The notes beneath the pieces are model-generated. The model searched no databases. It was not told the DNA's origin and saw nothing but the letters and a program-made list of their open reading frames with translations. Positions 14,933 through 27,553 of a stretch of DNA of 64,000 bases are shown one piece after another (position 1 is the first letter of the stretch; each line of letters begins with the position of its first letter). Origin of the DNA: Ctena decussata. Its lineage: Eukaryota > Mollusca > Bivalvia > Lucinida > Lucinidae. The stretch is from the NCBI GenBank assembly GCA_963989385.1, contig OZ022499.1:81209903-81273902 (forward strand). The letters are read 5' to 3'. A program made the translations under genes and the position numbers.

Positions 14933-15212
14933 TTTGACGTTTGTGTCTTAACTTTAACGTTATCGTATTGAAAAGGCGTTCTCGGCGGCTCGGCGGTATT
15001 TATATGCAATCCATTATTTTCATGCAAATATTTAGTTAGAATAAATATTTCTGAAGCGGAAGGCTAACGTCGTCAGATTCTTACAGAAACGTTCCGTCAC
15101 GTTGTTGCAACTCAGTGAATCAATTCTTCAGAAAGTGACCTAGCATCTCATCATTAAAATTTCTAGAGGACTGCTGTTTTGACAAGTGTGTTTGACTGAA
15201 TACTAACAAACA

Positions 15213-15218
15213 GACGTC
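15213..15218. repeat. Left target-site duplication GACGTC
   Basis: GACGTC immediately precedes the left terminus AGTAGTAAAG and is repeated immediately after the right terminus. Six bases is the usual Polinton target duplication. The sequence is itself palindromic, so it could alternatively be read as the outermost part of the inverted repeat, but AG as the first element bases fits Polintons. Confidence 0.85.
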
Positions 15219-15487
15219 AGTAGTAAAGGACGTCACTATGGGGACTCCCGGCCGGAGACTAAGTCCGCAGCCTGGGGCAGTCTCGGGCCGGGAGTCCCCA
15301 TAGATGACATCGCTTTAGTAAGCTTGAAAAGGCTAGTTTGAAATAACTTAGTCTTTTTTTCAGGCGGGAAGTCTATGTAATATGGCATAGGAGATGTCGT
15401 AGGAGGCTATACAGCAATATGCGTCTGCTATGAGTCTCTTGGCCCTGCATCTCAAGACCTCACTATACCAGAGGCATAACTCTATAG
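15219..15487 (+). repeat. Polinton left terminal inverted repeat (269 bp)
   Basis: Matches the reverse complement of 27258-27526 over its whole length with one difference that I can see (CCCTGCAT here, CCCTGTAT in the other copy, near 15448). It contains a second GACGTC at 15229-15234 and a large hairpin at 15239-15300. Its inner end is ACTCTATAG; the two arms diverge right after. Confidence 0.95.
15239..15300. other. Subterminal hairpin in left TIR
   Basis: 62 bp imperfect palindrome: a 15 bp perfect arm (TGGGGACTCCCGGCC / GGCCGGGAGTCCCCA), one G.G mismatch, 6 further pairs (GAGACT / AGTCTC) and an 18-nt loop. It is very GC-rich against AT-rich surroundings. It may be a replication, protein-binding or packaging signal; its role is inferred from position only. 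Confidence 0.85.
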
Positions 15488-15538
15488 CTTCCTTAGTATT
15501 AGGGCAATCAGTAGGGTATTCTTTCTGATGTAATTGGT

Positions 15539-15554
15539 AGTCCTGAAAAGGACT
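15539..15554 (-). terminator. Histone-type 3' stem-loop for the Gln-rich gene
   Basis: On the - strand AGTCCTTTTCAGGACT folds to a 6 bp stem with loop UUUC, preceded by CACAAAC and followed by ACCAATT, matching the animal replication-dependent histone stem-loop pattern. It begins 27 nt after the stop codon of the gene at 15582-15989. A purine-rich CAGAAAGAA lies about 13 nt further downstream (15516-15530 region), in the place of the histone downstream element that pairs with U7 snRNA. Function is inferred. Confidence 0.75.
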
Positions 15555-15581
15555 GTTTGTGTGGTTATAGCTAAGAACAAT

Positions 15582-15989
15582 CTATTGTTTCTTCTTTCTT
15601 TTTGAATTATCTATGTTCTTGCTATGTGACCCAAGTCCATTTTGAGTTGGTACGGTCACAGACGATTCTGGTGTCATTACTTCTATAGTTAATGGTATTC
15701 TGATCGGATTTAAGTCCATGGGACGTTGTTGCTTTTGGTCCTCTAACTGCTGTACTCTTTTCTTGAGATCATTGAGTTCTTTGAGCAAGACTTCTACAGC
15801 TCCCGTCTTTGGCTGTGACACCTGTGGCTGTGTTTGTTGCAGTTGTGATTGCTGTGGGTGGTAGTAATAGGTCTGCACGTTCGGTTGTTGTTGTTGAGTT
15901 AACGACCCATCAGTAGCAATTGTATTAATTGCCGTCGATAGAAGGTCTGGTTCTTTCATAAGATCGTCTAAGGTCAGTAGTGGTTCCAT
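15582..15989 (-). CDS. Gln-rich coiled-coil accessory protein of the Polinton (135 aa)
   Basis: Starts MEPLLTLDDLMKEPDLL, has a Gln/Tyr-rich stretch (about residues 33-60), a heptad-like helix (LLKELNDLKKRVQQLEDQK, about 69-87), a conserved-looking IRIPLTIEVMTPESS segment (about 97-111) and a basic KRKKKQ tail that could be a nuclear signal. I do not recognise its function; the acidic-hydrophobic start and Gln-rich region suggest a transcription or scaffold factor, which is inference. A TATAAAA lies about 30 bp upstream of the ATG on the - strand (16018-16024) and a histone-type stem-loop follows the stop. It is divergent from the gene at 16126, sharing a 136 bp intergenic promoter region. 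Confidence 0.8.
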   Translation of the reverse strand: MEPLLTLDDLMKEPDLLSTAINTIATDGSLTQQQQPNVQTYYYHPQQSQLQQTQPQVSQPKTGAVEVLLKELNDLKKRVQQLEDQKQQRPMDLNPIRIPLTIEVMTPESSVTVPTQNGLGSHSKNIDNSKRKKKQ

Positions 15990-16125
15990 GACTGAAGTTG
16001 TAAGTAGGTCAGTGCCGTTTTATACTCCCAAGACCGGATTGACCTACTTCGAAAAGTGATTTCTTTCAGGTCGGTACTGAGAGAATAAATACTGGAACAC
16101 TGACCCACTTCGTCACATTGTCTTT
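15990..16125. promoter_or_regulatory. Divergent promoter region between two left-arm genes
   Basis: On the - strand TATAAAA (16018-16024) is followed by CACTGACCTACTT (16014 down to 16002). On the + strand AATAAATA (16084-16091) is followed by CACTGACCCACTT (16098-16110). The 13-nt motif differs by one base and lies just 3' of both TATA-like boxes; a third partial copy TTGACCTACTTCG is at about 16039-16051. This supports a bidirectional promoter with a shared control motif. Confidence 0.6.
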
Positions 16126-16455
16126 ATGCTATACACAGAGAAGATGTTGAGCGACGAATATCTCGATGCTTTGGAGGCAAAGACTAGGTCTGTGATGGAG
16201 AGTGCAGAGAGGCTCGTAGAGCTGATAGGCATCGTAAGAAGGATGGTGACGGTCGACAGACAGATGGCTGTGGTGAAGCAAGAGCCCGAAGAAGTGAAGC
16301 AAGAGCCTGAAGAACGGCCATCCGGTGAAGATTGGGAGAGGGAGGCGGACCAGCCACCATTCTACTTGCCAACAGGGAGGACGGTGACGTACACGAGCTG
16401 GTCAGTACGCTGTCCAGCTTGTGGTGGCAGGCCCTCGCGGTGTCCCTGCTCATAG
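16126..16455 (+). CDS. Small accessory protein with two VKQEP motifs and a Cys-rich tail (109 aa)
   Basis: An amphipathic helical N-terminal part (about residues 8-45) precedes VVKQEPEEVKQEPEE, two tandem VKQE sequences that fit the SUMO-acceptor pattern (hydrophobic-Lys-x-Glu). The C-terminus CPACGGRPSRCPC could bind zinc. No family is recognised. ATG at 16126 is used because it follows the TATA-like box and shared motif of the divergent promoter; an internal ATG at 16144 is possible. The stop is followed by a consensus histone-type stem-loop. SUMO attachment, and a role in altering the host nucleus, is only inference. Confidence 0.7.
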   Translation: MLYTEKMLSDEYLDALEAKTRSVMESAERLVELIGIVRRMVTVDRQMAVVKQEPEEVKQEPEERPSGEDWEREADQPPFYLPTGRTVTYTSWSVRCPACGGRPSRCPCS

Positions 16456-16479
16456 AAAGGTTTATTAAAACCTCAAAAC

Positions 16480-16495
16480 GGCCCTTTTCAGGGCC
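16480..16495 (+). terminator. Histone-type 3' stem-loop for the VKQEP-motif gene
   Basis: GGCCCTTTTCAGGGCC fits the metazoan histone stem-loop consensus exactly (6 bp stem, UUUC loop), with CTCAAAAC before and ACCACAA after. It lies 24 nt after the stop codon at 16453-16455. ATCAGAAAGAAATAC follows at about 16506-16520, spaced like a U7-binding downstream element and sharing CAGAAAGAA with the element at 15516-15530. Confidence 0.82.
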
Positions 16496-16610
16496 ACCAC
16501 AACTTATCAGAAAGAAATACTTTGTTGATTGTTGCATAAAACCCCATAACTACTTTGCATAGTTTTGATTGGTCAAGAGACTATGCTCTCTTTCACGTCC
16601 GCCATGAGTC

Positions 16611-16622
16611 AATATATATATT
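16611..16622 (+). promoter_or_regulatory. TATA box of the 64-aa gene
   Basis: ATATATATATTTA lies about 35 bp upstream of the ATG at 16653, in a stretch without other coding potential. Confidence 0.5.
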
Positions 16623-16652
16623 TAACTGCCTTTAAAAACTTCATTCTCAAAT

Positions 16653-16847
16653 ATGGGGTTGTCAAAGTATATTCCTTTTGACCTGAGTCGACTGTGTAAA
16701 GCTTTTAAGAAGAAAGACTGGAAAGAAGTTGAAAGGCAGCAAAATAAGATGGGGTTTGAAGTATTTATGAGGAGGAGAGGGATCGACTTATCCAAGACGA
16801 ATCCTGTTGTGGGGATTGTAAAACCTGTGTCTAAGTCTTCACAGTAA
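16653..16847 (+). CDS. Small basic accessory protein (64 aa)
   Basis: MGLSKYIPFDLSRLCKAF begins a compact, Lys/Arg-rich protein (FKKKDWKEVERQQNK, FMRRRGIDL) with no transmembrane segment. I do not recognise it. It is supported as a real gene by a TATA box just upstream and by a consensus histone-type stem-loop 23 nt after the stop, the same gene anatomy as its two neighbours. It could be a nucleic-acid-binding or regulatory peptide. Confidence 0.65.
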   Translation: MGLSKYIPFDLSRLCKAFKKKDWKEVERQQNKMGFEVFMRRRGIDLSKTNPVVGIVKPVSKSSQ

Positions 16848-16870
16848 GTGAAGACTTAGAACACCCAAAC

Positions 16871-16886
16871 AGCCCTTTTCAGGGCT
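16871..16886 (+). terminator. Histone-type 3' stem-loop for the 64-aa gene
   Basis: AGCCCTTTTCAGGGCT (6 bp stem, UUUC loop), with CCCAAAC upstream and the canonical ACCCA downstream. It begins 23 nt after the stop codon at 16845-16847. TTTAAAGAG at 16901-16909 could act as the downstream element but is less like the consensus than in the other two genes. Confidence 0.8.
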
Positions 16887-16951
16887 ACCCAACTCTTTCG
16901 TTTAAAGAGTAACCTTATGAAATAACAAAGACCAATACTTTAAAAAACAAT

Positions 16952-16966
16952 TTTATTGAATAAAAA
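16952..16966 (-). terminator. Polyadenylation signal of the zinc-knuckle gene
   Basis: TTTATTGAATAAAAA on + contains AATAAA on the - strand, about 115 nt downstream of the zinc-knuckle gene's stop at 17079. This gene thus uses ordinary polyadenylation, unlike the three stem-loop genes to its left. Confidence 0.5.
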
Positions 16967-18104: not shown

Positions 18105-18563
18105 TTATAGTGTCAAAGCTTCAAATTTTACAGTCAATTCATCCATATCAATATCCATTGGTTCTTCCTGTGATGCCTGTTCAATTTCCATATTTTCTGT
18201 TGTTGTTGTTGTTGAGTTGATATCCATAGATTGTTCTCTCGAAGCCTCTTGAACATCTTTGAGTACGTTGCAAAGGTAAGTAATCACGTCCTCGTTGTTT
18301 GCCACATGAAGTAGCCATTGCTTATACTTCACAGGCGATGCGTCTAATATAGTGTTCATTATCAAAGCTGTTTCACACATGGCTTGTCGAAAGGTCATGA
18401 ATGTTTCATATCGTCCCAACCACGTTCTGAGTCCATCTTTTGACTTCAGAAATTCTGAACCTGTAGGTTGTAAGGATAGCGTGTGTTCAAGTGATCCTCG
18501 ATAAATGTCAAACTGTAAAATTCGACCTAACGATACTGGAGGAGATTTCTTGATCACGTTCAT
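18105..18563 (-). CDS. Unknown left-arm protein with acidic tail (152 aa)
   Basis: MNVIKKSPPVSLGRILQFD leads a mostly helical protein with the WLLHVANNEDVITYL module (about residues 83-97) shared with the 97-aa neighbour. Its acidic tail contains the repeated EPMDID/EQSMDIN-like segments. No domain is recognised. Its start lies about 80 bp from the 5'-truncated packaging ATPase on the opposite strand, so it flanks the likely deletion point that removed the ATPase N-terminus and possibly polymerase B. Confidence 0.65.
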   Translation of the reverse strand: MNVIKKSPPVSLGRILQFDIYRGSLEHTLSLQPTGSEFLKSKDGLRTWLGRYETFMTFRQAMCETALIMNTILDASPVKYKQWLLHVANNEDVITYLCNVLKDVQEASREQSMDINSTTTTTENMEIEQASQEEPMDIDMDELTVKFEALTL

Positions 18564-18593
18564 TGTTTTATTCCAAGTAGAAAGTCTGAATAG

Positions 18594-19294
18594 ACTGTTG
18601 GAAAACTTAGTGGTAATAATCTCTCTTCACTCTCGATAACTTGTTCATATGCGTCTCTGTTTCCAAATGACGACGACGATATTGTCACAGACACGAGTGA
18701 AACTCACTTGATTGTCTTTGACGATATGTTGGGCGACAAAGACGAAGAAAAAATTAAACTTTGGTTCACGAGGAAAGGTCATCACAGAAATGCAAGTGTT
18801 GTGTACATTACACAAAACTTGTTTCAGCAGAGTAAATCGACACGTACCATCAGTTTGAATGCCCATTACTTGATTTTGTTTCAAAGTCCAAGAGACAAAA
18901 TGCAAATTAAAGTTTTGGCGCAACAACTTCAAGCTCCACATTTGATTAAAATCTAAAAAAGTTTCTTCAAGAGCAGAGAATACATCCAGAAGTAGGAACA
19001 TGGGCCAGACTACGTAGTTTCGGCTAATAAAGCCTCGTCAGTGACCCTGACAATATCTGGTGACGAAACCAGAAAAAAGGCATACTGTAATTTCTTAATT
19101 TTAATTGGGCAGTCGATTCAAAGACTGAATGTCTGATGTCTGCCTTCAACGATGCCACTTCTAAGCCACATGGCTATTTACTGATCGATTTAAAACCAGA
19201 CACACCAAATCATTTGAGGTTTAGAACAGATATTTTTACAAACTGGTATACAAAATCGGATCAACAAGGTCCAGTTGTGTATTTTCCAGTATAA
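18594..19294 (+). pseudogene. ATP: Polinton packaging ATPase remnant (5' truncated, frameshifted)
   Basis: The segment around 18708-18956 encodes the Walker B-like LIVFDDML, then HHRNASVVYITQNLF and RTISLNAHYLILFQSPRD, typical of the C-terminal half of FtsK/HerA-type (A32-like) genome-packaging ATPases of Polintons and adintoviruses. A second segment in another frame (about 19142-19294) carries KPHGYLLIDLKPDTP and LRFRTDIF, the usual C-terminal end of this protein. The frame opens only after a TAG at 18591-18593, and no Walker A P-loop is present. The roughly 185 bp between the segments does not resemble the family. The ATPase is therefore broken by truncation and at least one frame change. 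Confidence 0.8.
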
Positions 19295-20681: not shown

Positions 20682-21506
20682 ATGGAAGGGCGTAAAATGG
20701 CCGTGGTACCATTTAAACTTTGGGAAGACATGAAACGCTGGAAAGAAGAACAAATTCAAAAACCAAGACTTCCACCCGATCCAAATGTTTCTGCGACGGC
20801 CAGTCTTCAAAGAGACTTGTCTTCGGTCATGGCCAACGAAGATTTGTCAGAGGCAGATAAATCTCAATTATTTGGTCAAACTTTACATAAATTTAAAACG
20901 GCACATCGCAAAGCACTGACAGAAACAAAACTTTCTCTTCCCGTAGAGCCTGAATCGAAAATTAATCAACGTATTTTTGATAGTGTTCCTACCACGATGC
21001 GAAAGAAAGCTAAATTATTGATATCTTGGCTAGAAAATAATCCTAACTTATCTTGGGACGAAGATGGGACGGTTAAGATGTATGGCAAACCGGTTGCAGG
21101 GTCTAATATCATAGATTTAGTCAATGATGTTTTAAGACAGAGAAAAGACACTGAGCCCAGGGGTTGGCAACCTTTTGCTGAGGCTCTTAGAGACATGAAC
21201 GTGCCTCAAGATTTTCTGGGAAATAAGAAACGATGGGAATGGATGCATCGTACTCCTCTTCAACACGAAGATGAAGAAGAGTATGTCACTCCTAAAACCA
21301 AACACCGACGCATGCCTACTCTTAAAAAAAGAACAAGTCCCGTTACACAATCGGTTAGAAAACACATCAAGAAAGACTTATCTCAAAGTTTGTCTGCCAC
21401 TAGAAAACATATCAGAGACGAACTGTTTACACCCAGTTCTATCAAACCTATAAAAGAAGAACTGTTTGAATCACCCAGAAAATGGTTATCTTATGATGAA
21501 CAATGA
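20682..21506 (+). CDS. Conserved Polinton protein of unknown function (274 aa)
   Basis: Starts MEGRKMAVVPFKLWEDMKRW. It contains LSEADKSQLFGQTLHKF, a VPTTMRKKAKLLISWLENNP segment, a LSWDEDGTVKMYGKPVAGSNI stretch with DLVNDVLRQRK, and a W-rich NKKRWEWMHR, before a charged C-terminal third with repeated RKHIKxxL(S/F) helices. This layout (helical domain, then SWD..G......GSNI..L) recurs in proteins encoded next to the integrase in many Polintons, but I know no assigned function; capsid scaffold or DNA-binding roles are guesses. Its TGA overlaps the integrase start in ATGA at 21503-21506, showing compact viral-style packing. Confidence 0.8.
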   Translation: MEGRKMAVVPFKLWEDMKRWKEEQIQKPRLPPDPNVSATASLQRDLSSVMANEDLSEADKSQLFGQTLHKFKTAHRKALTETKLSLPVEPESKINQRIFDSVPTTMRKKAKLLISWLENNPNLSWDEDGTVKMYGKPVAGSNIIDLVNDVLRQRKDTEPRGWQPFAEALRDMNVPQDFLGNKKRWEWMHRTPLQHEDEEEYVTPKTKHRRMPTLKKRTSPVTQSVRKHIKKDLSQSLSATRKHIRDELFTPSSIKPIKEELFESPRKWLSYDEQ

Positions 21507-22576
21507 ATAAATTATTATCTAAACTTTATTACGATCCTAAAAGTCCCGTGGGATATACGGGGTTGCAAGCTTTGTATAAAGCAGCAAAGAAAATTTCAAA
21601 GAAAATCAAACTTGACGATGTGAAAACTTGGTTGAGAAAACAACAAACTTACACTTTGCACAAACCCATACGTAGAAAATTTGTGCGTCGCAAAACTGTG
21701 GTGGCAGGAATAGATTATCAATGGCAGGGAGATTTGGCGGACGTATCTAGTATGGCAAAATATAACGACAAATATCGTTACTTGCTCTGTTTGATAGACG
21801 TATTTTCAAAATACGCCTGGGTTGTACCGATCAAAGACAAATCTGGAAAAACTTTGGTGGAAGCTTTTAAATCTGTTTTGAAACATGGACGTATTCCAAA
21901 AAGTTTGCAAACTGACAAAGGTACGGAATTCAAAAATAAAGAGTTTCAAAAGTTCTTGAAATCTAAAAATATTCATTTTTTCACGACAGAAAATCCAGAA
22001 ACAAAAGCAAGTATTGTAGAAAGGTTTCAAAGAACTCTGAAAAGTCGCATGTGGAAATATTTTACTCATAATCGTACACTGAAATATGTCGACGTACTTC
22101 CAAAATTAGTTCACGGGTACAATCATGCTTATCATCGCAGCATTAAACGTACGCCTGCATCTGTCGATGTCAAAAATGAAGTTCAAGTATCCCAAATTTT
22201 GTACGGCAAAAAGCAAAAAGTTGCAAGTCCAGAATTAAGAGTGGGTGATTTTGTGCGCATCAACAAAACAAAACGCACTTTTGAAAAAGGTTATTTACCA
22301 AACTGGACGCAAGAATTGTTTAAGGTTAGGGGTGTCATACAAAGTCAGAGTCCCGTTACCTATAAAATAGAAGATCTAGACGGGGAACTCATAAAAGGTA
22401 CTTTTTATTCGCAAGAATTACAACGTGTGGACAAAGATCAAATTTACGAAATAGAATCTGTCTTAGATCGTCGTAAACGAAAAGTTGGGAAAAAGTGGGT
22501 CAAAGAAATTAAAGTTCACTGGAAAGGCTATCCATCCAAATTTGACAGTTGGATTTTGGAATCCGATCTTGTATAA
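21503..22576 (+). CDS. INT: Polinton retrovirus-like integrase with chromodomain (357 aa)
   Basis: RNase H-fold integrase that cuts and joins the element's TIR ends into host DNA. The N-terminal YYDPKSPVGYTG and a TLHKPIRRKF linker are Polinton-typical. The catalytic DDE triad is visible as D77 in WQGDL, D138 in LQTDKG and E173 in VERFQR, with 34 residues between the last two. DVFSKYAWVVPI lies between the first two. The C-terminal chromodomain (about residues 312-357) has YEIESVLDRR, VHWKGYPSKFDSWI and ESDLV, suggesting targeting to methylated histone tails. Full length and uninterrupted, so possibly active; it could mobilise related defective copies in trans. The start overlaps the previous gene's stop by ATGA. 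Confidence 0.95.
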   Translation: MNKLLSKLYYDPKSPVGYTGLQALYKAAKKISKKIKLDDVKTWLRKQQTYTLHKPIRRKFVRRKTVVAGIDYQWQGDLADVSSMAKYNDKYRYLLCLIDVFSKYAWVVPIKDKSGKTLVEAFKSVLKHGRIPKSLQTDKGTEFKNKEFQKFLKSKNIHFFTTENPETKASIVERFQRTLKSRMWKYFTHNRTLKYVDVLPKLVHGYNHAYHRSIKRTPASVDVKNEVQVSQILYGKKQKVASPELRVGDFVRINKTKRTFEKGYLPNWTQELFKVRGVIQSQSPVTYKIEDLDGELIKGTFYSQELQRVDKDQIYEIESVLDRRKRKVGKKWVKEIKVHWKGYPSKFDSWILESDLV

Positions 22577-24192: not shown

Positions 24193-25488
24193 ATGATGCA
24201 AAGTGGATCTTGTGAATGTAGCAAGTCTGAATTAGACATGCAAACTGTTCCTCCAACTCTGACCACCATGCAAGATTCTCAGTGGATAGATTATCATCCA
24301 ATAGCTTCACTAGACAGTTATCATGCACCCATCGAATTTGTGGTACCAGGCCATACGGAATATTACACTGATTTATCACAAACTTATTTGTACTTGAAAT
24401 TCAGGATTTTGAGAGCAAATGGTGACGATCTTGAGGCTAATAAAAAAGTTGCTCCCACCAACAACTTCTTTCACAGTATGTTTAGTGGAATTGATCTATA
24501 TCTTAACAATAAACTGGTGACGAGTAACATGGATACGTATCCCTACAGGGCTTACATTGAAAACTTGTTTTCTTTTGGATCTGATGTGAAAGACAATCAA
24601 CTTAAAGCTGCAGAATTTTGGTACGAAGATGAACCTGGTCACTTTGAAGATTTTGGTCATGGCAATGTAACAGCCCGCATAAATCCTTTCAAACTAAGTA
24701 AACCTATGGAACTTCAAGGTCGTTTACATCTAGATTTGGCCATGCAGGAAAAATATTTGCCTAATGGAATAGAATTAAGACTTCGTCTCAATCGAGCTTC
24801 TCCTCAATTTTGTATCATGTCTGAGGATGAGTACCCTGTTATGGTTAAGATCGATGCAGCAGTCTTATCGGTTCGCAATGTTCAACTTTTGCCAGCCATA
24901 GCCAATGATCTCAATCAAACTATTGCACATCACAATGCGAAATTTCCCATACGGCGTGTAGAAGTTAAGACATTTACCATAGGCACAGGTCTTAGATCAA
25001 AAGTCGAGGACCACTTGTTTCAGGGACAACTTCCAAAGCGATTGTTCATTGGCATGGTAGATAATGCAACATTCAATGGATCGTTACTCACAAATCATTT
25101 CAACTTCCAACATTTCGGTCTCAGCAAACTTGAAGTGAGTTGTGACGGTCACAGCATTTATGGAAAACCATTTGAACCGAAATTTAAGTTAGATCAATAT
25201 CTCAGATCTTACATGTCTCTGTATCAAGCTTTGGGCAGTCAAAATCAGATTCAGAATTGTAACATCGACTACGACGACTACAAAGGTGGATACTGCTTCT
25301 GGGGATACGATTTCACGCCAGACCAAGGAGCCGATCAGAGCCATCTACATCCTATAAAAACTGGCAACCTGCGAGTGGAACTTCAGTTTGCAAAAGCACT
25401 CGTCAAGACCATCAACGTCAAAGTATATGCAGAGTTTGACAACCTGGTAGAAATCAACGGTTTGAGAGAAGTCATCACAGACTACTGA
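24193..25488 (+). CDS. MCP: Polinton major capsid protein (hexon-like, 431 aa)
   Basis: Matches the F54H12.2-like family widespread in invertebrate Polintons, taken as the hexon-like double jelly-roll capsid protein. Visible signatures are the Cys-bearing N-terminus (CECSKSELD), IEFVVPGHTEYYTDLSQT, TNNFFHSMFSGIDLYLNNK, DTYPYRAYIENLFSFG, a mid-protein LPNGIELRLRLNRA and a C-terminal GNLRVELQFAKAL...TINVKVYAEFDN. Beta-strand-rich and full length with no break. It forms the capsid shell in virus-like particles. The adjacent minor capsid gene is broken, so this copy alone could not assemble a complete capsid. Confidence 0.85.
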   Translation: MMQSGSCECSKSELDMQTVPPTLTTMQDSQWIDYHPIASLDSYHAPIEFVVPGHTEYYTDLSQTYLYLKFRILRANGDDLEANKKVAPTNNFFHSMFSGIDLYLNNKLVTSNMDTYPYRAYIENLFSFGSDVKDNQLKAAEFWYEDEPGHFEDFGHGNVTARINPFKLSKPMELQGRLHLDLAMQEKYLPNGIELRLRLNRASPQFCIMSEDEYPVMVKIDAAVLSVRNVQLLPAIANDLNQTIAHHNAKFPIRRVEVKTFTIGTGLRSKVEDHLFQGQLPKRLFIGMVDNATFNGSLLTNHFNFQHFGLSKLEVSCDGHSIYGKPFEPKFKLDQYLRSYMSLYQALGSQNQIQNCNIDYDDYKGGYCFWGYDFTPDQGADQSHLHPIKTGNLRVELQFAKALVKTINVKVYAEFDNLVEINGLREVITDY

Positions 25489-26104: not shown

Positions 26105-26695
26105 ATGAATACGCTAGAACTGACGGCCCTTCTGACCAAGGCGTCTCAACTTATGCATTTGAACGCCAAAGTAGTCTCGAAGGATCTCCTGCCACAGAAG
26201 AAGCCACTGGATGTGAAAGCATACATCATTAATACAGATGACTCGGACCAACCAGGAGAACATTGGGTGGCCTTATACTTCAAAGATGACAAGGCGATTT
26301 ACTTCGATTCATATGGACAGCCACCATTAGAAGACTACATTCTACCATTCATACAAAGAAATACCAAGACGTGGATAGAAAATACAGAGTTGCTTCAGAG
26401 TCCATGGAGTAAAGTGTGTGGAATGTATTGTATCTACATACTACATCAGCTAAGCAGAGGACTAGATCTGAAGACGGCCATTCACGAGAACCTGATGGGA
26501 ACAGGAGAAGATTCATACCAAAATGACAGAGACATTGAAATGTGGTTCAGTTTGAATTATGGAAGACTATACTTATCAGTGAAAAAGACAATATCACCAC
26601 CAGACCAGTTCTTTGAACATAGGATTCAAAGTTGTAAATGCTTAAGATATACCAATTGTTTATCAAAGAAATATCCAATGTATACGATGTTGTAG
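26105..26695 (+). CDS. PRO: Ulp1/adenain-like cysteine protease of the Polinton (196 aa)
   Basis: C48/C5-type protease that in adenoviruses and relatives cleaves virion precursors. The catalytic residues are visible in family order: His53 in GEHWVALYF, Asp68 in YFDSYG, Gln98 of the oxyanion hole in LLQSPWSKVCG, and the nucleophile Cys105 in CGMYC. The length is close to adenain. It lies 24 nt after the Cys/His gene as the last gene before the right TIR, a common Polinton position. AATAAA follows at 26769. The Cys-rich C-terminal tail (SCKCLRYTNCLSKKYP) is an extension of unclear role. Intact. Confidence 0.88.
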   Translation: MNTLELTALLTKASQLMHLNAKVVSKDLLPQKKPLDVKAYIINTDDSDQPGEHWVALYFKDDKAIYFDSYGQPPLEDYILPFIQRNTKTWIENTELLQSPWSKVCGMYCIYILHQLSRGLDLKTAIHENLMGTGEDSYQNDRDIEMWFSLNYGRLYLSVKKTISPPDQFFEHRIQSCKCLRYTNCLSKKYPMYTML

Positions 26696-26722: not shown

Positions 26723-27128
26723 CGACCCTAATCCTTTGTCAATCGTCAGTTAGTTCGTTAGCGGGGTAAATAAAGTTCTGTTATTGAAAAAAATCCAGTC
26801 TTTGTTATTTTTTCAGGTAAACTTTAGAAGGCTAGTAAGAAATAATTTCAGTCCAGAACATTAAAATCTTGAGATACAAGATTTTATAATCCCCAAGGAA
26901 CAAGTACTGACGCTATAGAGTTATGCGACCCTAATCCTTTGTCAATCGTCAGTTAGTTCGTTAGCGGGGTAAATAAAGTTCTGTTATTGAAAAAAATCCA
27001 GTCTTTGTTATTTTTTCAGGTAAACTTTAGAAGGCTAGTAAGAAATAATTTCAGTCCAGAACATTAAAATCTTGAGATACAAGATTTTATAATCCCCAAG
27101 GAACAAGTACTGACGCTATAGAGTTATG
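26723..27128 (+). repeat. Two tandem 203 bp units inside the right arm
   Basis: 26723-26925 and 26926-27128 are identical as far as I can read, each starting CGACCCTAATCC and ending CGCTATAGAGTTATG. The terminal CTATAGAGTTATG is also the inner edge of the right TIR (27258), and each unit holds sequence resembling the TIR interior (AAGGCTAGT.AGAAATAA). A partial third TIR-derived copy is at 27116-27200. Confidence 0.9.
26769..26774 (+). terminator. Polyadenylation signal of the right-arm transcription unit
   Basis: AATAAA 74 nt after the protease stop. Because it lies in a duplicated 203 bp unit it recurs at 26972-26977. Both are in sense orientation within the amylase intron and could cause premature amylase mRNA ends. 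Confidence 0.6.
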
Positions 27129-27200
27129 CCTCTGGTATAGTGAGGCCCTGAGATACAGGGCCAAGAGACTCATAGCAGACGCATATTACTGTAAAGCCTC
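27116..27200 (+). repeat. Partial duplicate of the inner right TIR
   Basis: About 85 bp matching 27258-27342 with a few substitutions (GGCCCTGAG for GGTCTTGAG, TTACTGTAAAG for TTGCTGTATAG). The intervening 27201-27257 appears unique. Confidence 0.85.
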
Positions 27201-27257
27201 AGAAATTGAACAGAATGAACAAGAGTATGCCACAGCAACTCACACCATCAACTGTCA

Positions 27258-27526
27258 CTATAGAGTTATGCCTCTGGTATAGTGAGGTCTTGAGATACAG
27301 GGCCAAGAGACTCATAGCAGACGCATATTGCTGTATAGCCTCCTACGACATCTCCTATGCCATATTACATAGACTTCCCGCCTGAAAAAAAGACTAAGTT
27401 ATTTCAAACTAGCCTTTTCAAGCTTACTAAAGCGATGTCATCTATGGGGACTCCCGGCCCGAGACTGCCCCAGGCTGCGGACTTAGTCTCCGGCCGGGAG
27501 TCCCCATAGTGACGTCCTTTACTACT
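27258..27526 (-). repeat. Polinton right terminal inverted repeat (269 bp)
   Basis: Inverted partner of 15219-15487. The inner 85 bp or so is also present as a diverged direct copy at 27116-27200, so the right arm has undergone local duplication. Confidence 0.95.
27445..27506. other. Subterminal hairpin in right TIR
   Basis: Inverted copy of the left hairpin, identical in sequence. Both sit exactly 20 bp inside the element ends, so the terminal 20 bp plus hairpin form a conserved end structure. Confidence 0.85.
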
Positions 27527-27532
27527 GACGTC
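27527..27532. repeat. Right target-site duplication GACGTC
   Basis: Copy of the left-flank hexamer directly after CTTTACTACT at the right end. On this side the surrounding bases make the 12 bp palindrome ACTGACGTCAGT (27525-27536), which includes a TGACGTCA cAMP-response-type site. Confidence 0.85.
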
Positions 27533-27553
27533 AGTGACGGCGACCATGTCCCA

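Follow-up and report, generated by a model that had tools for sequence, protein, structure and literature searches.

Histone-type 3' stem-loops behind three non-histone genes of a Polinton-type element in the bivalve Ctena decussata

By the usual account, the 3' end of replication-dependent histone mRNAs is the sole animal mRNA end without poly(A), and the SLBP- and U7-dependent processing that makes it is tied to DNA replication. Here we describe signals of this type behind three small left-end genes of a Polinton-type mobile element of the bivalve Ctena decussata. The element lies in a stretch of 64,000 nucleotides (contig OZ022499.1 of assembly GCA_963989385.1, hereafter the window; C2:81209903–81273902 of the host assembly of 1.66 Gb, whose sequences are given below as C numbers and individual loci as L numbers). 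An earlier reading of the window (the original prediction) had proposed that the three genes are tied to S-phase, SLBP-dependent, poly(A)-less mRNA processing. In animals, SLBP and the U7 small nuclear ribonucleoprotein (snRNP) direct CPSF73 to cut 4–5 nt past the stem, and the mRNA has no poly(A) tail, as described in passages of PMC7026596, a figure legend of which gives the mouse U7 tract as CUCUUU.

The type of signal is known, whereas we found no description of its use by non-histone Polinton genes apart from a bare count. That count, given among noncoding RNA classes in one section of PMC12220804, is of six Rfam matches to the histone 3' untranslated region (UTR) stem-loop in a collection of Polinton-like viruses and virophages; none occurred in 1107 cryptophyte elements, and the section names no gene, function or conservation. 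Beyond it, we found no discussion of histone-type 3' ends on Polinton genes in the open-licence literature, nor anything on Polintons in the open-licence literature on SLBP or U7 and viruses. Excerpts of PMC5799277 (where the terms occur in the reference list only) and PMC10794571 hold nothing on histone stem-loops in Polintons, and the term 'stem-loop' does not occur in PMC11071296, on adintoviruses. An RF00032-type element has been reported within a coronavirus coding region (in part of PMC7786107). The suggestion that such ends had not been described for Polintons therefore stands with regard to discussion, and has to be amended for the count of six.

The window contains three hairpins of the histone 3' stem-loop family (Rfam RF00032), each behind one of three small genes:

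15582..15989, minus strand: gene 1, 135 aa, Q-rich, with predicted helices at residues 7–12, 14–22 and 62–86 (the last long) and a basic tail
15539..15554, minus strand: histone-type 3' stem-loop of gene 1, AGTCCT TTTC AGGACT, RF00032 27.9 bits
16126..16455, plus strand: gene 2, 109 aa, with a predicted helix at residues 2–52, an acidic VKQEP stretch and a C-terminal CPACGG...CPC cysteine motif
16480..16495, plus strand: histone-type 3' stem-loop of gene 2, GGCCCT TTTC AGGGCC, RF00032 39.0 bits, above the gathering score
16653..16847, plus strand: gene 3, 64 aa, small, basic and strongly conserved
16871..16886, plus strand: histone-type 3' stem-loop of gene 3, AGCCCT TTTC AGGGCT, RF00032 29.6 bits

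On the sense strand the hairpins stand 27 nt (gene 1), 24 nt (gene 2) and 23 nt (gene 3) from the stop codons, and both the sequence and the RF00032 matches confirm the positions, strands and distances of 23–27 nt that had been proposed for them. A cmscan search of the whole window against 4227 families at E ≤ 10 returned exactly three RF00032 matches, with E-values of 6e-8 for gene 2 (16475–16521, plus strand), 2e-4 for gene 3 (16866–16911, plus strand) and 9e-4 for gene 1 (15515–15559, minus strand). Each hairpin has the expected 6-bp stem and 4-nt loop, with an A-rich flank before it and ACC after it, and a pattern written from the three, AACRGYCCTTTTCAGGRCYACC, has three matches in the window compared with none in 100 dinucleotide shuffles. 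The remaining Rfam matches in the window, mostly of microRNA type, are all under their own gathering scores and were set aside.

The host's own histone genes, which form an array of many units at C14:55.0–56.1 Mb with a spacing of ~5.86 kb, provide a scale for these matches. The three host hairpins scored reach 35.2 bits (H3), 32.7 bits (H4) and 32.3 bits (H1); compared with this range gene 2 is above, genes 3 and 1 are lower by 3–7 bits, and the Polinton scores are not those of background. Because the genuine host H4 and H1 hairpins also miss the Rfam gathering score for RF00032 (34 bits), this cut-off discriminates poorly in this host. The host hairpins lie 29 nt (H3), 33 nt (H1) and 32 nt (H4) from the stop codon. 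The Polinton ends resemble those of replication-dependent histone mRNAs in their 6-bp stem, 4-nt loop, A-rich lead, short distance from the stop, purine-rich stretch at +14/+15 and RF00032 scores. They differ from them in that the proteins match no histone, the genes lie in a mobile element, each gene has its own stem and the downstream element of gene 3 is weak; the bases that follow the stem are ACC in the Polinton, ACA in host H3 and H4, and ATT in host H1. The host genome also holds an SLBP domain (PF15247) at C1:112.066 Mb, split over two stretches that score 62.1 and 40.5 bits, one of them reading over a stop; they lie ~1 kb apart, and we read them as two exons.

Downstream of the hairpins lie the following elements, with offsets counted from the base after the stem:

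15519..15527, minus strand: U7-type downstream element of gene 1, CAGAAAGAA, with GAAAGAA starting at +14
16508..16516, plus strand: U7-type downstream element of gene 2, CAGAAAGAA, with GAAAGAA starting at +15
16901..16909, plus strand: putative downstream element of gene 3, TTTAAAGAG, with AAAGAG at +18, complementary to mouse U7 CUCUUU

The host histone genes carry elements of the form GARRGAA: GAAGGAA at +15 in H3, GAAAGAA at +14 in H4 and GAGAGAA at +14 in H1. The purine-rich elements of genes 1 and 2 stand at the host spacing and are like that of host H4, in keeping with what had been claimed for them, whereas gene 3 has only its AAAGAG at +18; the element attributed to this gene is present but weak. 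An [AG]A[AG][AG]GA core is kept in 47 of the 48 hairpin-bearing copies of gene 1 and in 46 of 48 for gene 2. The case that the downstream elements of genes 1 and 2 are of U7 type rests on their match to the host motif and on this conservation, not on six-base pairing with U7.

Conservation of the hairpins was assessed within the window's own genome. A search of it with the gene 2 protein, in which 150 of 160 candidate places were scored (identity 100% to 47%), yielded 50 copies for examination, comprising the 30 best and 20 divergent ones. A hairpin with 5 or 6 of its 6 pairs stands behind gene 1 in 48 of the 50 (44 with 6/6 and 4 with 5/6; missing in L038 and L056) and gene 2 in 48 of the 50 (47 with 6/6 and 1 with 5/6; missing in L054 and L067). 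After gene 3 it is found in 43 of 46 copies, always with 6/6 pairs (missing in L053, L058 and L066); of the remaining four copies, three gave no match to gene 3 and one ends too early to be scored. L054 has a displaced gene 2 hairpin with one mismatch, which scores 25.4 bits. Four additional copies have the hairpin after gene 1 in all four, after gene 2 in three (one with 5/6 pairs) and after gene 3 in all three that possess the gene. The hairpins are conserved after homologous genes, as the original prediction required, and this includes copies in which genes 1 and 2 have diverged deeply. In the six divergent copies L066–L071, genes 1 and 2 have 41–46% residue identity to the window, and the proportion of synonymous differences (pS) is 0.70–0.78, at or near saturation (L066 for gene 1 only; L067, L068, L070 and L071 for genes 1 and 2). 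The exact hairpin is nonetheless present in 15 of 18 places in these six copies (gene 1, 6/6; gene 2, 5/6; gene 3, 4/6). The hairpin flanks of L070 agree with those of the window at 61%, 76% and 76% of positions, for which a naive product of chances is ~6e-8. Gene 1 compared with L070 has a nonsynonymous divergence (dN) of 0.37 with synonymous sites near saturation. Gene 3, where found in L066–L071, is 94–97% identical beside the diverged genes 1 and 2, and its comparison with L066, L068, L070 and L071 gives dN/dS of 0.03–0.04 at a synonymous divergence (dS) of 0.8–1.0.

The degree of divergence is not uniform across the three genes. L066–L071, L080 and L082 have ~38–47% of the residues of genes 1 and 2 in common with the window and, where gene 3 is present, 92–97% of its residues, whereas in L057–L061 and L063–L065 gene 2 is at 52–54% and genes 1 and 3 are at 94–100% (gene 1 of L058 being partial). 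The left-end module looks like a mosaic, as if alleles of genes 1 and 2 had been swapped by recombination.

Across the host genome, AAACRGYCCTTTTCAGGRCYA matches at 431 places, and the same pattern written backwards at none. Among the 100 matches listed (C1–C3), 94 have a copy of gene 2 no more than 2.5 kb away. All three exact hairpins accompany 28 of the 36 copies of gene 2 on these three sequences, two accompany 3 of them, one accompanies 4 and none accompanies 1. The six listed hairpins without a gene 2 copy within 2.5 kb (C1:48300364, C2:308211, C3:8667984, C3:68876613, C3:97797553 and C3:97838558) could mark dispersed histone genes, pieces of the element or other sequences that use this signal. 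A search of public viral and prokaryote contigs with the DNA pattern gave one match, in a phage-like coding stretch of an unrelated contig, and protein-based scans confirmed no relative there.

Covariation was examined in eight hand-chosen hairpins: the three of the window, those of host H3, host H1 and a gene of the C4 array described below, and two copies picked for their differing stems. Standard pairs make up 97.9% of the pair cells, compared with 8–60% of cells paired when the partners are slid, and two-sided changes affect 5 cells in two pairs. The paired share, the number of two-sided cells and the covariation score were each reached by 3 of 500 shuffles. Because the sample is small and partly selected, we regard the support from covariation as modest.

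Taking these lines of evidence together, we consider it highly likely that the hairpins act as working histone-type 3'-end signals of the SLBP/U7 kind for three non-histone genes of a bivalve-type Polinton, whose mRNAs would be poly(A)-less and biased toward S phase. Our confidence goes no higher because two of the Polinton hairpins score under those of the host and the argument from poly(A) signals is weak. On the mechanism that we propose, host SLBP would bind the hairpin, the U7 snRNP would pair with the purine-rich element 14–18 nt past the stem, and CPSF73 would cleave 4–5 nt past the stem to give short mRNAs without poly(A). Given that SLBP/U7 processing is coupled to DNA replication, the Polinton mRNAs would be made, translated and destroyed along with host histone mRNAs, and their proteins would be present at the time at which the DNA of the element can be replicated, in S phase or else in eggs and cleavage embryos rich in SLBP. 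The original interpretation of S-phase, SLBP-dependent and poly(A)-less processing is supported by these comparisons of sequence.

A number of observations weigh against this reading. The hairpins of genes 3 and 1 (29.6 and 27.9 bits), two of the three, are under the gathering score, which only gene 2 passes; below that cut-off RF00032 also matched 1 of 14 prokaryote controls, Lactococcus lactis, and the gene 2 hairpin of L056 (6/6 pairs, TTCC loop) was not matched by Rfam at E 0.5. In the eight-hairpin set, 317 of the 500 shuffles reached the number of pairs with a two-sided change (2), and 480 the number of pair types. The purine core of genes 1 and 2 is missing in 43 of 43 gene 3 copies, and in L068–L071 the AAAGAG of gene 3 is gone though the hairpin stays, which counts against the use of U7 by gene 3 there. 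When six-base pairing was tested with the mouse U7 tract in place of that of the host, neither genes 1 and 2 nor the host histone genes stood apart from shuffles: the share of shuffles that paired as well was 0.25 for gene 1 and 0.12 for gene 2, with 0.17 for host H3, 0.15 for host H1 and 0.13 for host H4. Gene 3 did stand apart in the window (0.01), but not in L070 (0.75). U7 itself (RF00066) was not found in the host in a search that scored 65 of 429,586 candidates and in which no control rang, so that this result is no evidence of absence. Moreover, all copies come from one genome, in which recombination or gene conversion could help to keep the hairpins alike. Conventional poly(A) signals are also present among the genes at the left end:

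16959..16964, plus strand: AATAAA after gene 3, 112 nt past the stop and 73 nt past the hairpin
16952–16957, minus strand: AATAAA of a neighboring zinc-knuckle gene, the mirror of that of gene 3, 122 nt past the stop

The use of AATAAA by the zinc-knuckle gene had been anticipated, but gene 3 has this signal as well, 73 nt beyond its hairpin. In gene 2 the stop is followed by ATTAAA at 9 nt and CATAAA at 80 nt, with no AATAAA in 250 nt, and none of five poly(A)-type hexamers occurs within 250 nt of gene 1. The lack of AATAAA after genes 1 and 2 is weak as an argument because six of nine other scanned genes of the element also lack it.

The features of gene 3 bear on an explanation that we regard as unlikely, namely that the hairpins bind SLBP mainly for export, stability or translation (e.g., in eggs and cleavage embryos), while the 3' ends are mixed and some of them polyadenylated, with U7 cleavage optional, above all for gene 3. 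That this gene retains its hairpin but loses the U7-type element in L068–L071, with an AATAAA close by, is what such a state would look like, and hairpin and AATAAA are also paired in histone genes of Caenorhabditis elegans, in which the hairpin end is used nonetheless (part of PMC1924863). Optional cleavage is harder to reconcile with the U7-type core that all but one copy of gene 1 and all but two of gene 2 keep at the host histone spacing, or with gene 1 and its want of any poly(A)-type hexamer. We find it very improbable that the hairpins serve as a decoy, in which bulk hairpin RNAs would titrate SLBP or U7, cut the supply of host histones and leave less chromatin on the DNA of the element. 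The many copies, most of those examined with three hairpins, would suit such a role; however, the hairpins occupy the 3'-UTR position of three conserved genes rather than a noncoding cluster, each gene retains its own stem, and a decoy would have no need of a downstream element.

Two further explanations have next to no probability in our judgment. The hairpins might be functionless leftovers of host histone 3' ends that the element captured. The stem of gene 2 is indeed the same as that of host H3 and H4 (GGCCCT/AGGGCC), but three differing stems follow three unrelated genes, and 15 exact hairpins in the 18 places of the six divergent copies, despite the pS of genes 1 and 2 and the 61–76% agreement of the L070 flanks, are not expected of passive remnants. 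It is hardly credible, too, that the hairpins arose by chance or have another role, such as that of a terminator or a DNA replication or packaging signal. The reverse strand would give a GAAA-loop hairpin, and the prokaryote control illustrates that RF00032 matches below the cut-off arise by chance elsewhere; against this stand the absence of the pattern from 100 shuffles, the 431 genomic matches compared with none for the backwards pattern, and the sense-strand position and downstream elements, which fit histone 3' ends for all three genes although gene 1 is opposite in strand to genes 2 and 3. We retain SLBP/U7-type 3'-end formation as the preferred reading, with U7 cleavage better supported for genes 1 and 2 than for gene 3.

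None of the three proteins is a histone, as the original prediction had noted: a Pfam search of the proteins of genes 1–3 gave no match at E ≤ 0.1, the weak matches of genes 1 and 2 being at 0.12 or worse. AlphaFold models are mostly of low confidence (gene 2 pTM 0.35, low outside the helix; gene 1 pTM 0.24), and public protein sets contain 18 further homologs of gene 1 and 10 of gene 2, the two proteins searched there. From the left-end position of genes 1–3 and their hairpins we infer that they may be early or cell-cycle genes. Genes 1 and 2 diverge from a promoter region at 15990–16125, and CACTGACCYACTT, which occurs in both leaders, is a possible common start or control motif. An antisense open reading frame (ORF) over gene 2 (16184–16537, minus strand) was set aside; gene 2 itself is conserved.

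The element to which the three genes belong has the following further features:

15210..15487, no strand: left terminal inverted repeat of the Polinton-type element, 278 nt, 99% complementary to the right arm at 27258–27535
21503..22576, plus strand: rve integrase with chromodomain (PF00665 6e-14, PF00385 7e-7)
24193..25488, plus strand: probable major capsid protein, no Pfam match, presumed as to family
26105..26695, plus strand: adenovirus-type cysteine protease (PF00770 22.8 bits, cut-off 21.3)

An rve integrase, a protease and terminal inverted repeats, the marks of a Polinton/Maverick, are all present in the element, which with its chromodomain, adenovirus-type protease and capsid-like gene resembles Polintons/Mavericks and adintoviruses, and differs from described members in the histone-type 3' ends of its three left-end genes. 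The product of 24193..25488 is the candidate for the double-jelly-roll major capsid protein expected of a Polinton/Maverick, and probably belongs to the 'F54H12.2-like' family. It has 1009 homologs, some of which are named F54H12.2-like in Mercenaria, Ostrea and Crassostrea, with relatives also in Saccostrea. The stretch 18594–18953 (within 18563–18953) is a candidate A32-like packaging ATPase, with a Pox_A32 score of 19 bits that is below the cut-off of 22.8. No protein-primed DNA polymerase B was found among the window ORFs scanned by Pfam, a search that did not extend to longer copies. A genome search with the capsid gene, in which 97 of 306 candidate places were scored, placed 27 of the 28 capsid matches on C1–C3 at 8.1–25.9 kb from a like-oriented copy of gene 2. 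Because the distance from gene 2 to the capsid gene is 8.07 kb in the window copy and 14.3–15.6 kb in 22 of 27 pairs on C1–C3, the window copy is probably a deletion form, with ~7 kb missing between these genes and 18563–18953 as the candidate region of the deletion. At the right end of the element, 26723–27342 contains two identical 203-nt units in tandem, and the inverted repeat is partly duplicated there. In the right half of the window (~32400–64000), ORFs recur with a period of ~2275 bases, and the sequence resembles a long tandem repeat.

The host genome contains a second non-histone user of a histone-type end. Among the 75 RF00032 matches listed in the host, 74 lie at C4:9.05–9.22 Mb (loci L003–L021 among them), with scores of 32.2 bits and mostly ~1.95 kb apart; a further locus, L002, is at C4:0.239 Mb. 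The protein of this C4 array, read in 19 of 20 loci, is a non-histone of 106–109 aa (MKVSLDKRFTLS...) with no Pfam match above the cut-off, and the hairpin together with the downstream element CAAGAAAGA is present in 20 of 20 loci, at 32 nt from the stop in 17 loci and 23 nt in 2. The C4 array and the Polinton share an RF00032 hairpin and a downstream element on a non-histone gene, and differ in that the array consists of tandem units; no link between the two was found, nor was one sought. Histone-type ends on non-histone genes may accordingly be more widespread here than in the animals of textbooks; the Polinton would then be a little less unique, and the finding itself is unaffected.

Given that the gathering score misses two of three Polinton and two of three host histone hairpins, adintoviruses and Polintons merit a rescan with host-calibrated cut-offs. 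The three genes also offer natural non-histone substrates for probing what SLBP and U7 require, and our reading, if true, would explain why such genes escape RNA-seq on poly(A)-selected RNA. More broadly, we think it probable that a family of animal virus-like elements routes three non-histone genes through the host SLBP/U7 pathway to obtain tail-less, replication-phase messages, for proteins that would act on the cell or start replication of the element, and that selection has kept the hairpins over deep divergence. A mobile DNA virus lineage would in that case have adopted the mRNA regulation of histones. The same signals on three unrelated genes of a mobile element would form a direct and testable tie between virus-like elements and the S phase of their host.

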